Assembly (NCBI GenBank): GCA_903913285.1
Contig: CAIWKO010000045.1
Location: 68,068-132,067, forward strand
Direction: 5' to 3'
Length of the DNA: 64,000 nucleotides
From: an uncultured Bacteroidales bacterium
GTDB lineage: Bacteria; Bacteroidota; Bacteroidia; Bacteroidales; CAIWKO01
A program made the position numbers and the translations under genes. Below, in pieces: positions 1 to 48,717 of the stretch. The notes beneath the pieces were generated by a model. The model had not been told where the DNA came from, searched no databases, and saw only the letters and a program-made list of their open reading frames with translations. Positions within the stretch are counted from its first letter, which is position 1; the number at the start of each line of letters is the position of its first letter.

Positions 1-50
1 TTCTGAATCTTGTGCTGAGCGCAGTCGAAGCATCTTACTTCTGAATTTTT
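1..50. repeat. Dispersed repeat copy (shared with metG insert)
   Basis: The first bases contain, on the minus strand, GCTTCGACTGCGCTCAGCAC followed by AAG, flanked by TTCAGAA words on both sides. The same core, with one substitution in 23 bases, lies inside metG at 34194-34217 with the same flanking words. Two copies about 34 kb apart, one intergenic and one inside a gene, indicate a dispersed short repeat. The left end is cut by the window, so its true extent is unknown. Confidence 0.7.
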
Positions 51-268
51 AACTTCCCCAATCCCGCATCTTCCAACCTTGTCCGCCTTTTGGCGTATTA
101 TATCCCTCCCTCAGCCAATCCGTTGAATTGTTTCGAAGAAAAAAAGTGCGTTGGCACGTCCAAACGGCGGGCCGGCGTAGGCTGTGAATGAAAAAAATAT
201 TAGAAAATCGTAAAAGCTTGCCCGACAAAGAGGCGGGCCTGCCCGACTTTTGGCGGGGGGCTTGCCTT

Positions 269-294
269 TCCGCCGAATGGCGGACTACTTTTTT
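269..294 (+). terminator. Terminator-like hairpin
   Basis: TCCGCC (269-274), loop GAAT, GGCGGA (279-284) is a perfect 6-bp GC-rich stem, followed after four bases by six T. This is the form of an intrinsic terminator on the plus strand. No recognised gene lies upstream inside the window, so it may end a transcript from outside or be part of a repeat. Confidence 0.4.
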
Positions 295-446
295 AGATAT
301 TCTTGTTTTTTTCAGAGCGCGTGGAAGCTTCGTTTGGACTGTTCTTTTCTTTGGTTCGTTTCTTTTTAACATGAAAAAGAAATGAACAATAGAACAATCC
401 CTATGCACCAGTTAACCGGGTTGTTATGGAATTATGGCTCGAACAT

Positions 447-509
447 AAAAAAAGTTGCCGGAACCATTGCGTAAAAACCCCATGAAAGCAATGACCCCGA
501 CAACTTTTT
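447..509. other. Long nested hairpin (terminator or small RNA)
   Basis: An outer stem pairs A-run-GTTG-C-CGG (447-461) with CCG-A-CAAC-T-run (497-509), with one C/A mismatch. An inner stem pairs CATTGC (465-470) with GCAATG (488-493) around a 17-base loop. Both outer arms end in A/T runs, so it could end transcription in either direction. The layered, mismatched structure could also be a small structured RNA. No gene abuts it directly. Confidence 0.4.
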
Positions 510-591
510 GTTAACCCAAAAAATCCATTAAAACGTAGCATAAAGATACAAAATTATGGTAGGCAAAAGCAAGTTTTTTGTCATTTATTTT

Positions 592-599
592 TACATTTG
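592..599 (+). promoter_or_regulatory. -7 box TACATTTG
   Basis: Exact match to the Bacteroidota -7 consensus TAnnTTTG, 18 bases before the ATG at 618. No clear -33 TTTG is seen at the usual spacing. Confidence 0.5.
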
Positions 600-617
600 T
601 TCTAAAATTACTTCATT

Positions 618-1109
618 ATGAATTCCCTGCAAAAATTAAAATATGGCCGCACACTTTCGTTCACCAAAGTGCTTGCAATTGTTCTTATAGTATTATCCGT
701 ATCGGGTATTGCAAAATGGATAGTGTTAATTCCGCTTAGTTTGTTCGATCTGTTTCCGGGGCATGGCATGTTCCAAACCGATAGTCTTTATCAATTTAAA
801 TGGCTGGTGCATCATTATCCCTTATTGTTACTGATAAAGGTGGGGCTTTGGATCGTTACACTGATACTGGCTGTGAAACTGCTGAAATTTAAAGAATGGG
901 TGCGCATTTATGTTATAATGGTATTGGCGCTTCAATTTTTGTGCATGATAGCCGTAAATGCTATATTATTTTGGCATGCTATGGTGGGATTTCCTTTTCA
1001 ATTCGTGCTGGTGCTTGTTTCGCTGAAACTTATAGCAATACTTGTATTTTGCATGATATGGCTTTCGCGGAAAAAAACGAGGGAAGCATTGGAGGAAGGT
1101 AATAGGTAA
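618..1109 (+). CDS. Small multi-spanning membrane protein
   Basis: I do not recognise the family. The 163-residue product is strongly hydrophobic, with four likely membrane spans at about residues 17-40, 70-90, 96-117 and 124-148 and a short Lys/Arg/Glu-rich C-terminus. A -7 box lies 18 bases upstream of the chosen ATG. The last codons (Gly-Asn-Arg-stop) fall inside the GGTAATAGG repeat that begins the inverted-repeat unit to its right, so the native C-terminus may have been changed by that insertion. Function unknown; it could be a small transporter-like or sensor protein, but nothing in the sequence decides this. Confidence 0.6.
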   Translation: MNSLQKLKYGRTLSFTKVLAIVLIVLSVSGIAKWIVLIPLSLFDLFPGHGMFQTDSLYQFKWLVHHYPLLLLIKVGLWIVTLILAVKLLKFKEWVRIYVIMVLALQFLCMIAVNAILFWHAMVGFPFQFVLVLVSLKLIAILVFCMIWLSRKKTREALEEGNR

Positions 1110-1132
1110 AAGGTAATAAGTAAGAGGTAATA
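1098..1132 (+). repeat. Left inverted repeat of four-helix-bundle unit
   Basis: A GGTAATAGG/GGTAATAAG-type low-complexity repeat. Bases 1111-1132 (AGGTAATAAGTAAGAGGTAA followed by TA) are exactly complementary to 1511-1532 on the far side of the 119-residue gene. The outer 10 bases also match at 7 of 10 positions. The left arm contains the stop codon of the upstream membrane protein gene. Confidence 0.85.
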
Positions 1133-1142
1133 GGTAAGAAGT

Positions 1143-1502
1143 ATGAAAGATAGTGTGTTATTAAAGAAATCTTTTGCGTTTGCATTGCGAATGGTTAATA
1201 TGTACAAACATCTTTCTTCGGTTAAAAAAGAATTTGTGCTGTCCAAACAATGTTTGCGCAGCGGCACTGCTGTGGGAGCAATGATCCGTGAAGCGGTTTA
1301 TGCTCAATCGAACGCCGATTTTATACATAAATTAAGTATAGCAGCAAAAGAAGCCAACGAAACCGAGTATTGGTTGCAATTGCTTCAAGAATCGGGTTAC
1401 ATTGAGAAATCCGTTTTCGATTCAATAAGTGCCGATTGCGATGAATTGCTTCGCTTATTGACTGCCTCTATAAAAACTTCCAAAAGTAAACCGAAAGAAT
1501 GA
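1143..1502 (+). CDS. Four-helix-bundle protein, S23/IVP family
   Basis: The 119-residue product matches the four helix bundle family encoded in 23S rRNA intervening sequences (Pfam S23 ribosomal protein, TIGR02436). The pattern fits: an N-terminal helix with FALRMVNMYKHL, a basic stretch before SKQCLRSGTAVGAMIREA, then SNADFIHKLSIAAKEANETEYWL, the family's most recognisable segment. Related proteins include the Avd accessory protein of diversity-generating retroelements, but no reverse transcriptase is nearby. The gene sits between perfect 22-bp inverted repeats with only 10 and 8 bases between the repeats and the ORF, as if gene and repeats form one unit. Molecular role not established; nucleic-acid binding is the usual suggestion. 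Confidence 0.85.
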   Translation: MKDSVLLKKSFAFALRMVNMYKHLSSVKKEFVLSKQCLRSGTAVGAMIREAVYAQSNADFIHKLSIAAKEANETEYWLQLLQESGYIEKSVFDSISADCDELLRLLTASIKTSKSKPKE

Positions 1503-1510
1503 TAAACCGT

Positions 1511-1545
1511 TATTACCTCTTACTTATTACCTGTTACTTGTTGTC
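1511..1545 (-). repeat. Right inverted repeat of four-helix-bundle unit
   Basis: TATTACCTCTTACTTATTAC followed by CT at 1511-1532 is the exact reverse complement of 1111-1132. The outward continuation CTGTTACTTG is a degenerate copy of the left arm's outer words. It begins 8 bases after the stop codon of the enclosed gene. Confidence 0.85.
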
Positions 1546-1582
1546 CGTCTTTCCTTTTCTCTCCCCATCACTAAATAAATAC

Positions 1583-1590
1583 TATATTTG
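1583..1590 (+). promoter_or_regulatory. -7 box TATATTTG
   Basis: Exact TAnnTTTG match 40 bases before the ATG at 1631. The -33 region is T-rich but has no clear TTTG. Confidence 0.45.
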
Positions 1591-1630
1591 TAATGAATAT
1601 TCAAAGTTCTCCATATAAAAACCAAACAAT

Positions 1631-2827
1631 ATGGCAAACAAAACCTTTGTAAAGATAGTGAAGATCACGCTGCGTGTGGTTATTTATACCGTTGTGGCTG
1701 TTGTTGTGCTGGCTGCCGCCGGATTGTTGTATCTGCAACTCACCCAATACAAGCCTGCACCCAAAGAAGCTCTGAAGGTGATGAACGATACTAAAAAAAG
1801 TAAGATAGAGAAGAACGAACTCACACTGATAACATGGAACATTGGCTATTGCGGCCTCGATAAGGGTATGGATTTCTTTTACGACGGAGGCACCAGGGTT
1901 CGCCCCACCGACAGCGCTTTTCAGAAGAGCCTGAACGGCGTATTTCATTTTCTTTCGCACAACGATACGGTTGATTTTATCCTGTTGCAGGAAGTGGACA
2001 CGGCTTCGCGCCGCAGCTATTATACCAACGAGATGAACGTGTTTTCGCAGGCCCTGACCAACTTCGACTGGAGTTTTGCGGTGAACTATAACACGAAATA
2101 TGTGCCCGTGCCCATGTTCAACCCCATGGGCGCCGTGGTTTCGGGTATCACCACTTTTTCGAGGTTTTCGCCGCTCTCGTCCGAACGTTATGCCTATCCG
2201 CTGAATTATCCCTGGCCCATGAACCTGGTGATGCTCGACCGCTGTTTTATGTTGCAGCGCTATCAGCTTGCCGACGGAAAAGAACTGGTGCTGATAAACC
2301 TTCACAATTCGGCTTTCGACAATGCCGACCTGTTAAGGCAATACGAGTTATGGATGCTGCGCGGCTTTTTGCTGACCGAATACGGGCAAGGCAACTATGT
2401 TATTGTTGGCGGCGACTGGAACGAAAACCCTCCCGGCTACGAAAAGCAATTTTTCCACACGGGTTATTTCAAGAAATACGGTTCGCCTCAGATTCCTTCC
2501 GATTATCTGCCCGACACCTGGCATTACGGCTTCGACAAAAAAACACCTACCAACCGCGAAGTATACGAAGCCTATCGTCCCGGCCTGACACCCACCACCA
2601 CCATCGACTTTTTTATCACCTCGCCCAACATTGTCATCAACGATGTACAGGCCCTCAATGTCGGCTTCGAATTTTCGGACCATCAACCCGTTTGTATTAG
2701 CTTTACACTTAGCGACGACCCACTGACGGGCTGTTCGGACGATTGTCTGGATGTGATATCTACCCTGAAAGATTCGATAACAATTCTGAACGATGCATTG
2801 CCCAAGAAGTGGGTGAAAAAGAAATAA
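1631..2827 (+). CDS. Endonuclease/exonuclease/phosphatase-family protein, membrane-anchored
   Basis: The 398-residue product has one N-terminal membrane span (about residues 11-34) and then an EEP-fold hydrolase domain. Family motifs are visible in order: LITWNIGY (Asn ligand), LLQEVD (metal-binding Glu), INLHNSAF, GGDWNEN (Asp/Asn pair), TTIDFF and SDHQPV (catalytic His near the C-terminus). EEP proteins hydrolyse phosphodiester or phosphomonoester bonds in nucleic acids or lipids; the substrate cannot be told from sequence. The anchor suggests action at the outer face of the inner membrane. The gene converges on hemW with a gap of only three bases. Noticeably GC-richer than the genes to its left. 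Confidence 0.85.
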   Translation: MANKTFVKIVKITLRVVIYTVVAVVVLAAAGLLYLQLTQYKPAPKEALKVMNDTKKSKIEKNELTLITWNIGYCGLDKGMDFFYDGGTRVRPTDSAFQKSLNGVFHFLSHNDTVDFILLQEVDTASRRSYYTNEMNVFSQALTNFDWSFAVNYNTKYVPVPMFNPMGAVVSGITTFSRFSPLSSERYAYPLNYPWPMNLVMLDRCFMLQRYQLADGKELVLINLHNSAFDNADLLRQYELWMLRGFLLTEYGQGNYVIVGGDWNENPPGYEKQFFHTGYFKKYGSPQIPSDYLPDTWHYGFDKKTPTNREVYEAYRPGLTPTTTIDFFITSPNIVINDVQALNVGFEFSDHQPVCISFTLSDDPLTGCSDDCLDVISTLKDSITILNDALPKKWVKKK

Positions 2828-2830
2828 GGG

Positions 2831-3958
2831 CTATTCGGTGAAGAAGAGATCGGAACTGATGCGGTCGGCAAACAGGCGGCCTTCGTCGGTGAGGCTGACG
2901 AGCGTATCGGAAACCATCAGCAGTTCGGATTGGTGATAGCGTTGAAGCATCTTATGGAAATAAACGGAAAAGCGTTCAGGAAACTTTTGTTCGAGTTCTG
3001 ATATAACGATGCCTTTGTTGGTGCGTAGCGAAGTCATCACAAACTCATTGTATTTTTGGGTGGGAGTTAAAACTTCCGCTTCGAACGGAACCTTATGCTG
3101 CGCGATGGTATCAACATACTGTTCCATATTGGCACAATTCCACTGACGCGAAGCTATGTTGAATGAATGTGCCGAAGGTCCGACGCCCAGATAGGGGATG
3201 CCTTCCCAATACGCTCTGTTGTGTTTGGATTCGTGGCCGGGCAAACAAAAGTTTGATATTTCGTAGTGCACATAATTCACGTCTTTCATAAACTGCATGA
3301 GGTAGCGGAATTGATTGGCGGTTTCGGCTTCCGACACGGCAGCGCGTTTTTGTTTGCTGATGAGCACTTCGAGGTTGGTATTGGGTTCTACGGTGAGCGC
3401 GTAGGCCGAAATATGCGGTATTTGCAGCCCTACGGCTTTGTTCAGGTTTTCACGCCAGTGTCCCATGCCCAATGATGGTGCTCCGTAGATGAGGTCGATG
3501 CTGATATCGGTAAATCCGCCGTCCTGCAATGCTTTGATGGCATATTCACTTTGTGTGTCTTCGTGGAGGCGGTTGAGGTATTTGAGGTCGGCAGCATAGA
3601 ACGACTGCACACCCATGCTGATGCGGTTAACAGAAGTTGCGCGGAGTTCTTTTACTTTTTGCAAAGATATGTCGTCGGGATTGGCTTCCAGCGTTATTTC
3701 AGGTGAATTGCTCAACACGAAGTTCTGTTGAATTTCGTCGATCAATAGATTGATCTCATCGGAAGAGAGCAGGGAAGGCGTTCCGCCACCGAAATAGATG
3801 GTGTTCACGGTTTCGTTAAGATAGTTCTTTTGCAGACGGAGTTCGTGTTGCAAGGCGGGCACGATGCGGTCGCGATATTTGAGCGAAGGAGTGGAATAGA
3901 AATTACAATAATGGCATTTCTTCCGGCAAAAAGGGATGTGAATGTAAATTCCGGCCAT
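2831..3958 (-). CDS. hemW: Radical SAM protein HemW
   Basis: The 375-residue product starts with HIPFCRKKCHYCNF, giving the radical-SAM cluster cysteines C11, C15 and C18. It continues with the GGGTPS glycine motif and EANPDD, typical of the HemN/HemW group. The position after the CxxxCxxC motif is Phe rather than the fourth Cys of true oxygen-independent coproporphyrinogen oxidases, as in HemW. HemW is regarded as a haem chaperone rather than a coproporphyrinogen dehydrogenase. It is divergent from pdxH, sharing a 48-base intergenic region. Length is normal for the family. Confidence 0.9.
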   Translation of the reverse strand: MAGIYIHIPFCRKKCHYCNFYSTPSLKYRDRIVPALQHELRLQKNYLNETVNTIYFGGGTPSLLSSDEINLLIDEIQQNFVLSNSPEITLEANPDDISLQKVKELRATSVNRISMGVQSFYAADLKYLNRLHEDTQSEYAIKALQDGGFTDISIDLIYGAPSLGMGHWRENLNKAVGLQIPHISAYALTVEPNTNLEVLISKQKRAAVSEAETANQFRYLMQFMKDVNYVHYEISNFCLPGHESKHNRAYWEGIPYLGVGPSAHSFNIASRQWNCANMEQYVDTIAQHKVPFEAEVLTPTQKYNEFVMTSLRTNKGIVISELEQKFPERFSVYFHKMLQRYHQSELLMVSDTLVSLTDEGRLFADRISSDLFFTE

Positions 3959-3962
3959 AATG

Positions 3963-3993
3963 TTGTATAAACCGCTGCGAAATCATAACTTTG
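3963..3993 (+). promoter_or_regulatory. Bacteroidota promoter for pdxH
   Basis: TTG (3963-3965), 20-base spacer, TAACTTTG (3986-3993): a full match to the -33/-7 arrangement. The predicted start of transcription, near 4000, leaves a leader of only a few bases before the ATG at 4007. Confidence 0.65.
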
Positions 3994-4006
3994 AAAAAAA
4001 ATAGTT

Positions 4007-23261: not shown

Positions 23262-23375
23262 AGTGCCTAAAGTGGATTAAAGTACTTAAAGTGCCTAAAG
23301 TTTGAAGTTAAAAGTTCAAAGTCTTTTGTTCAATGTTCGGAGTTTAAAGTTAAATGTTTCGTTTTAAAGTTTTGA
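23262..23375. repeat. Low-complexity AAAGTGCC / TTAAAGT stretch
   Basis: Repeated short words AAGTGCCTAAAGT, ACTTAAAGTGCC, AGTTAAAAGTTCAAAGT and TTTAAAGTTAAATG. It is the same kind of short-word, low-complexity sequence as the GGTAATAGG arms near 1.1 kb, but with different words and no enclosed gene. Confidence 0.6.
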
Positions 23376-23396
23376 GAAATGCGGCTCCAGCGTCTG

Positions 23397-23669
23397 GCTT
23401 CCGCGGTCGCGGTTTTTGGTTCCGATTTTGTGTTTGGGGGTTCCGCGGACATGTTTGAGGGTTTCGATTTTGTGTTTGGGGGTTCCGCGAATGTGTTTGA
23501 GGGTTCCGCACTTGTGTTTGATGGTTGCGCGCTCGTGTTTGGAGACTCCGCGGACGTGTTTTTGGCTCCGATTTGGTGTATAAGTGTCGCGCGTTTGTGT
23601 ATTTTGCTTCCGATTTCGTGTTTGGAGGCTCCGATTTCATGTTTGGAGGTTCCGCGCTTGTGTTTTTGT
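23397..23669. repeat. 21-bp tandem array, 13 units
   Basis: Thirteen consecutive units of exactly 21 bases with no insertion or deletion. Typical units are GGTTCCGATTTTGTGTTTGG+G and GGTTCCGCGGACATGTTTGA+G. Two main unit types (CCGATTTTGTG and CCGCGGACGTG) partly alternate. Every strand and frame open through it encodes a heptad (for example RNPQTQN on the minus strand, FGGSADV on the plus), but neither reading has a convincing start region or non-repeat domain. Confidence 0.9.
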
Positions 23670-48591: not shown

Positions 48592-48717
48592 TTACCAATT
48601 GGTTTTTTACCAGATACGATATGTTTTCGACCAATGACTATATGTTTTTGTTCAATGACGATAGGTTTTCGATCAATAACGATAGGTTTTATTTCAATGA
48701 CTGTCGGATTTAAACTA
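48592..48717. repeat. Second 21-bp tandem array, about 6 units
   Basis: Units of exactly 21 bases: 48613-48633, 48634-48654, 48655-48675 (ATGACGATAGGTTTTCGATC+A), 48676-48696 and 48697-48717, with a more decayed unit at 48592-48612. The sequence is unrelated to the array at 23.4 kb but the period is the same and there are no indels. Confidence 0.8.

Follow-up and report, generated by a model that had tools for sequence, protein, structure and literature searches.

S23 four-helix-bundle genes enclosed by inverted heptad-repeat arms in the gaps between operon genes

At more than half of the loci examined, genes of the S23 (four-helix-bundle) family, PF05635, are boxed by inverted arms, and this class is well supported. 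The arms are mostly tandem arrays of a 7-nt unit, which differs between elements and is common to both arms of one element, and the enclosed gene predominantly lies in sense between co-directional genes. We place a probability of about one half on the reading that the S23 units in operons are intervening-sequence-like elements in mRNA. The components are already known one by one, as S23 genes, 23S rRNA intervening sequences, RAYT/REP units and intergenic heptamers. No title or abstract start listed from the open-licence literature describes the joint rule of an S23 gene with element-specific inverted heptad arrays, in sense and in operon gaps, which is not proof of its absence.

One such unit is present in the window, the 64,000-nt stretch of an uncultured Bacteroidales genome analysed here (Table 1). 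The first-pass annotation had described a 119-residue S23 gene between exact 22-bp reverse complements, and recomputation recovered this pair as the sole exact inverted pair of at least 18 nt within 1 kb in the 64-kb window. At k=20 the inverted pairs in the window are (1111,1513), (1112,1512) and (1113,1511), and in 20 dinucleotide shuffles of the window the mean number of inverted pairs was 0.05 for k=18 and 0 for k=20. With mismatches allowed, the arms comprise 32 nt at 91% (1101-1132 / 1511-1542), and the arrays have a total span of 446 nt. The stop codon of the upstream ORF lies in the left heptad array, as had been claimed from the sequence alone. RNA folding of the unit predicted end-to-end pairing (z -7.6 vs 100 shuffles), and together with the recurrence of such arms at other S23 loci (see below) this bears out the earlier view of gene and arms as one unit that could fold as a long hairpin.

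Table 1. Features of the S23 unit and its genomic context, in window positions.
Feature	Position	Strand	Basis or remark
Left heptad array (GGTAANA)	1097..1143	+	Tandem Repeats Finder: 5.9 copies of 7 or 3.4 of 14
Left exact 22-bp arm	1111..1132	+	Repeat search
S23 / four-helix-bundle gene, 119 aa	1143..1502	+	PF05635 E 1.6e-27; TIGR02436 'four helix bundle protein'
Right exact 22-bp arm, inverted copy	1511..1532	-	Repeat search
Right heptad array, inverted vs left	1510..1542	-	TTATTAC / TTACTTG on + strand; 4.3 copies of 7 at 1510-1539
Upstream co-directional gene, 163 aa, hydrophobic	618..1109	+	ORF; host context
Downstream co-directional gene, endonuclease/exonuclease/phosphatase family	1631..2827	+	PF03372 E 2.6e-10; host context
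TATATTTG, possible promoter -7 box for downstream gene	1583..1590	+	Match to Bacteroidota consensus; window matches at chance level

The window unit lies between two protein-coding ORFs and not inside a 23S rRNA gene. No Rfam family was matched, positions 1-4000 of the window included, and the upstream gene had no match in Pfam or NCBIfam at 0.001. The -7 consensus of Bacteroidota promoters is TAnnTTTG. In addition to the possible -7 box before the downstream gene, a similar box is located at 592-599, before the upstream gene; on the sense strand no promoter-like -7 box falls between these two and none directly before the S23 gene, with matches across the window at the level of chance (87 observed vs 87.7 expected). 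A search of relatives for an exact empty site of the window unit found none, since in these genomes the downstream gene had no detected copy of the upstream gene next to it.

The window S23 product belongs to PF05635 (96.3 bits, cut-off 33.8), its sole Pfam family at 0.001. It matched no transposase family in Pfam or NCBIfam, including the Y1 (HUH) transposases by which REP/RAYT units are recognised. The AlphaFold2 model (pLDDT 93.9) has four helices, and Foldseek aligned it to 2rld from Bacteroides (TM 0.86-0.89 by query length, 57-58% identity) and to 2gsc from Xanthomonas (22-23% identity, E 1e-4 to 2e-3). Both of these structures contain five chains, and the S23p of X. campestris is described as a homopentamer (PMC4990558). 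The modelled fold also resembles Avd of diversity-generating retroelements (4dwl TM 0.73-0.80; 4dwl/8ube TM 0.73-0.82), at an E of only 0.03-0.1. Unlike in these retroelements, no reverse transcriptase is encoded beside the S23 gene, and the single RVT_1 match of the genome is located on contig C43, whereas the window is on C45.

To score arms across the family, the 150-nt flank upstream of each S23 gene was compared with the reverse-complemented 150-nt flank downstream. PF05635 matched 109 times in related genomes (28 of the 39 had a match); set 1 comprises 73 of these matches, mostly the stronger ones, of which 71 loci in 26 genomes were usable (flanks of at least 100 nt). Set 2, from named genomes, comprises the best 80 of at least 581 confirmed S23 relatives, 76 of them usable. 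The threshold of 12 is the 95th percentile of mismatched pairs in set 1, where the median score was 14.0 for own pairs and 8.0 for mismatched ones. In set 1, 48/71 own pairs scored 12 or more and 31/71 scored 15.5 or more; in set 2 these counts were 41/76 and 23/76, vs 5.1% and 1.5% of mismatched pairs, and in both sets close relatives are included, which are not independent. Permutation of the downstream flanks never reached the observed means (set 1: observed 16.3, permuted maximum 10.0, 0/10000; set 2: observed 13.96, permuted maximum 9.47, 0/10000). Below the arm threshold were 23/71 loci of set 1 and 35/76 of set 2, among them L040, which lacks arms at threshold although its close relative L001 has them at the same ABC-transporter site. 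If the 23S rRNA intervening sequences are part of a wider class of this kind, its members probably number in the hundreds, many of them in culturable bacteria, given at least 581 S23 relatives and arms at 41/76 in set 2.

Other genes in the same genomes served as controls. Neighbouring ORFs of S23 loci reached 12 in 3/52 cases and 15.5 in 0/52; one of the three is itself an S23 gene, from a locus with two of them. Four of 404 ORFs in 462 kb of the window genome reached 15.5, namely three S23 genes and one gapped AT-rich match; none of the genome's five S23 genes is absent from this sample, for which some stretches had been picked on their account, and two of the five miss 15.5. ParE toxin genes had inverted arms in 0/24 usable loci (30 loci, 26 tried). 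Outside the Bacteroidota, set 2 contains 12 usable loci, as judged by record title (Balneolaceae counted with Bacteroidota and a record titled 'bacterium' left out). Five of them reach 12 (two Clostridia, two Chloroflexi and one Lambdaproteobacteria) and seven do not, and these loci come mostly from metagenome assemblies that may include misbinned contigs. One of the two Chloroflexi matches (L147) is a G+C-rich hairpin and not a heptad array.

Self-comparison of the S23 flanks revealed peaks at lags 7, 14, 21 and 28, with a match of 0.39 at lag 7 vs 0.28-0.30 in controls. The aligned arms have a median length of 29 nt, and of the 72 arm pairs aligned without gaps, 60 had 7 as their best period. 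In these 60 pairs the mean sorted column conservation was 0.99, 0.99, 0.96, 0.93, 0.81, 0.63 and 0.52, and the heptads mostly consist of 4-5 core letters conserved in both arms and 2-3 variable ones. The cores include GTAAnA (window unit), CAAGA, TTAGA, GTATT and CAGT. A core kept in both arms while the rest varies is no better explained by base pairing than by a binding site or by copying at the DNA level.

The window genome encodes five PF05635 genes (L001-L005, the window gene being L003), in whose flanks the repeat unit varies by locus and is at several loci inverted across the gene. The GGTAATA class occurs at two of them, L003 and L001; L004 has clear arms built on another unit, and L002 (11.0) and L005 (8.0) are under the threshold. 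A 16-nt GGTAATA pattern with up to 2 mismatches had 54+20 matches in the genome vs 1+1 for the reversed control pattern, which shows that the low-complexity class assigned earlier exists and is dispersed. The first-pass annotation had also held that a repeat found mostly without S23 genes would speak against the unit. This is indeed the case for the GGTAATA letters, but they are the wrong feature, the shared one being inversion and the 7-nt period. The letters were therefore rejected as the defining feature, since most genome copies are solo arrays and other S23 genes use other units.

Heptad arrays abound in the window genome, and most of them have no S23 gene. Intergenic period-7 arrays numbered 30 in 462 kb (C36, C60, C66 and the window) vs 0-4 for other periods, a count that includes S23 arms and covers diverse units, and none of the ten heptad arrays among the matches listed on C36 had an inverted partner at 12 or more. 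As a correlate of S23 presence, heptad abundance gave a mixed picture: per intergenic length, the window genome has 30 period-7 arrays per 50 kb, vs 0 per ~25 kb in four S23-less genomes and 3 per ~49 kb, one of the three mostly N, in five other S23-bearing genomes.

Both neighbours were co-directional with the S23 gene at 121 of the 141 loci having two neighbours called, and at 3 loci the S23 gene was antisense to both, with gene calls following a simple ORF rule. In a genome sample, both neighbours were co-directional for 53.5% of genes and for 47.7% of genes gapped on both sides, and other gene triplets in the S23 loci were co-directional in 16/37 cases. The sense orientation fits an RNA-level role or a need for translation through the insert, and would be unexpected for a DNA-only unit. 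From their flanking genes, we take the gaps holding S23 to include fadB-fadA, fadA-acyl-CoA dehydrogenase (acd), panB, leuC-leuD, hisH-hisA, sdhA-sdhB, carA-carB and those between ABC transporter pairs.

The fad operon was sampled at 70 loci, which are the 30 best and the next 40 by score, two skipped, of 194 genomes matched and thus not random; 67 of these yielded 131 scorable fadB-fadA-acd gaps. S23 genes are present in sense in 9/65 fadB-fadA gaps and 23/66 fadA-acd gaps and antisense in 0, one of the 32 filled gaps (L236) containing a decayed S23 fragment. S23-less fad gaps are as short as 3 nt, and the closest filled and S23-less genomes have 93-95% of fadA letters identical. A given operon gap may contain S23 in one species and lack it in a related one. 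Arms at 12 or more accompany 27 of the 32 fad-gap S23 genes, and 18% of mismatched pairs also reach 12 because close species share units. The L174 fad operon apparently contains two different S23 genes flanking fadA, as read from translation. A four helix bundle gene in an intergenic position has been recorded before: in two Flavobacterium columnare genomes, it is located between the genes for guanylate kinase and nicotinate-nucleotide adenylyltransferase, and is given without comment on repeats in the passage that lists it (PMC5524665).

The closest known counterpart of these units is the 23S rRNA intervening sequence of Coxiella. This element is 428 nt long and is excised by RNase III; its terminal inverted repeats form a 28-bp stem, with an S23 ORF in the loop (PMC4990558). 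Two or three tandem heptamers GACAGAT, their number depending on the strain, precede the S23 start codon, and the ORF is decaying and probably not expressed (PMC4990558). The same source describes 23S intervening sequences as known for >25 years, with their origin and the function of S23 unsettled. The operon units share the S23 ORF in the loop, the terminal inverted repeats, the sense orientation and the tandem heptamers before the ORF, and the 446 nt of the window arrays are close in size to the Coxiella element. They differ in being hosted by gaps between protein genes, in having heptads in both arms and in a unit that varies by locus. Furthermore, in contrast to the decaying Coxiella ORF, the close operon S23 orthologues tested are under purifying selection. 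RNase III excision is a feature of the Coxiella element and would be a prediction for the operon units. The first-pass annotation had missed the heptamers in a 23S intervening sequence, the family-wide pattern and the operon-gap sites.

In our preferred reading, the unit would be transcribed as part of the host operon, as might be expected from the lack of a promoter-like match on the sense strand directly before the window S23. Its two arms would pair and place S23 in the loop of a long hairpin. By analogy with the Coxiella excision, a double-strand RNase such as RNase III could then cut the stem, which would separate the upstream and downstream cistrons and free the S23 mRNA. As the Coxiella element has the same three parts, the rRNA and operon elements probably represent one class, and stem cutting appears the likeliest fate of the operon hairpins. 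More weakly, an S23 oligomer might bind the repeats of its own element and thereby set the processing or expression of the operon transcript. While the class itself is well supported, this mechanism as a whole is what we infer from the comparison, and it overlaps with DNA-level and binding-site models. If the rRNA elements do belong to a wider operon class, natural empty sites would be available as controls and the S23 protein would become testable.

Alternatively, the arms could be DNA-recognised ends (as double strand, cruciform or single-strand hairpin) of a REP- or MITE-like unit, with S23 assisting or binding these ends and with copying or template switching, instead of selection on RNA pairing, keeping the arms alike. 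Although doubtful in our judgement, this reading accounts for several observations. Across 102 arm pairs (of 179 loci, arm score 13 or more), mismatches on the sense strand comprised 78 of the G-U type vs 110 of the A-C type (p 0.024), the wrong direction for RNA pairing, selection on which predicts the reverse. RNA pairing via G-U tolerance was thus tested and not found, and the 5' arm showed no purine bias beyond controls (0.60 vs 0.58).

Inverted periodic arms are, furthermore, not confined to S23, since PF13366 genes (Pfam name PDDEXK_3, presumably GxxExxY) are boxed as well. They had been planned as a negative control, which failed because inverted arms were present at 17/24 usable loci (L304-L331; 52 matches, 25 tried). 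Their arms have a 9-nt period, with a flank match of 0.337/0.332 at lag 9 vs 0.301/0.300 at lag 7 and, for example, a CACAGAG-type unit. In these two families, the repeat period thus tracks the gene family, being 7 for S23 and 9 for PF13366. Y1 transposase genes, included as a positive control, were boxed in 11/22 cases with a 250-nt flank and in 9/22 with 150 nt (30 loci, 26 tried, 22 usable), by palindromic repeats with no 7-nt period.

RAYT/REP units are a known kind of element, and the operon S23 units resemble them in that a small gene is boxed by inverted copies, gene-less copies occur elsewhere and the same intercistronic gap can be used. The fadB-fadA gap that carries an S23 unit in other species is in L235 occupied by a Y1 transposase gene (PF01797, E 1.3e-27) between inverted repeats, which makes the earlier comparison with RAYT/REP apt as an analogy. 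A 201-aa ORF in the fadB-fadA gap of L271 had been taken for a Y1 transposase by a sequence motif, and was not counted as it matched no Pfam family. S23-less fad gaps of 45-300 nt usually contain a hairpin (median MFE z -3.2, 35/60 below -3), and 29/60 are self-inverted at 12 or more vs 1/60 once-shuffled, with a best lag of 7 in 18 of the 29. Such gene-less hairpins, as well as the many heptad arrays of the window genome, including the ten among the C36 matches listed without an inverted partner, would fit a DNA-level unit, and terminal inverted repeats like those of a MITE or minimal transposable unit are present at the window unit.

The placement of S23 genes argues against the DNA-level reading: they lie mostly in sense, at 121/141 loci and in 32/32 filled operon gaps, unlike PF13366, for which both neighbours are co-directional in 13/22 cases (Fisher p 0.005). 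Nor are the arms palindromic as REPs are, the median match of 106 arms to their own reverse complement being 4.5 vs 5.0 when shuffled (window arm 2.5). They differ from REPs also in being periodic arrays, and S23 differs from RAYT in having no transposase match, its modelled fold resembling no known nuclease or transposase according to Foldseek.

S23 genes also cluster by site, which is a further point against a DNA-level unit. In a FastTree phylogeny of 148 S23 proteins, site labels changed 20 times vs 41.5 in shuffles, and the median pairwise dN/dS of close S23 orthologues was 0.07 (33 of 37 pairs), which implies strong purifying selection. Site clustering and purifying selection together suggest that S23 units are mostly inherited in place, and some independent acquisitions seem to have occurred. 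The fadA-acd label changes at least three times on starred branches of the S23 tree, which could equal one gain and two losses. L240, L244 and L247, from this gap, fall in a starred 23-row set with the window protein, far from other fadA-acd rows, which points to the gap having been filled more than once. In line with the first-pass annotation, the units show presence or absence at fixed sites in relatives, whereas frequent or recent hopping as the main mode is disfavoured by the clustering by site and the median omega of 0.07.

A third reading, which we regard as unlikely, views the heptads as iteron-like sites for an S23 pentamer, on DNA or single-stranded RNA. Each repeat would bind one subunit, for which TRAP is a model, and the inverted pair would serve autoregulation or a switch between S23-bound and hairpin states. 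This would agree with a core common to both arms beside 2-3 variable positions, with a period that goes with the gene family, and with the five chains of 2rld and 2gsc and the reported X. campestris homopentamer. Arm resemblance also climbs with S23 identity, from medians of 5.0-6.0 (<50%) to 8.5 (50-60%), 14 (60-80%) and 19 (>80%), and units within one genome are hardly more alike than others (6.0 over 60 pairs vs 5.5 overall). In a Mantel test, arm and S23 similarity were correlated over all pairs (rho 0.16, 0/500 permutations as high) and at different or unknown sites (rho 0.079, 10/500), but not significantly at known different sites (rho 0.074, 64/500), such that shared descent in place explains much of the correlation. 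It is very improbable that the units are a by-product, with heptad arrays arising from slippage, inverted copies from replication template switching and S23 merely persisting in gaps: despite the abundance of mostly S23-less heptad arrays in the window genome, arms with a shared unit flank S23 far more often than neighbouring ORFs or ParE in the same genomes, they occur in G022 (2/3) and G027 (5/6), where 0 and 1 heptad arrays were counted in the stretches sampled, and their period differs with the enclosed gene family.

A broader generalisation, which we put forward tentatively and consider more doubtful than the intervening-sequence-like reading itself, is that S23 genes and heptad arrays constitute a large family of matched protein-repeat pairs, in sense between core-operon genes, that control transcript cutting or translation. 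Each element would have its own 4-5 letter core per 7 nt, which the S23 pentamer of that element would recognise, and 23S intervening sequences would be a branch that landed in rRNA. If the protein family determines the period, as 7 for S23 and 9 for PF13366, this could amount to a general, unnamed kind of repeat-boxed gene. Intergenic heptamer direct repeats TAACTGA are reported from Beggiatoaceae, Cyanobacteria and five Bacteroidetes (PMC4679880). Like the arrays described here, they are intergenic 7-nt tandem arrays often just before a start codon; they differ in having one fixed unit and a nearly always direct orientation, and the main text is silent on S23 (PMC4679880).

A longer S23 subfamily (136-159 aa; L005, L061, L097 and L102) occupies one conserved site mostly without clear arms (8, 10.5, 11 and 15) and has perhaps settled in the host. 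In a Clostridia MAG (L164), an S23-type ORF has long near-matching arms with a score of 47.5; its neighbours are presumably thioredoxin-like and thioredoxin-reductase-like genes. Intergenic 'simple repeats' of these genomes may belong to defined units. In the window, the intergenic region 23297-23665 is full of 7- and 21-nt repeats (AAAGTTn, GGTTCCG-CGTTTGT-GTTTGAG), with no S23 noticed there, and positions 48601-48701 contain an intergenic 21-nt tandem array.
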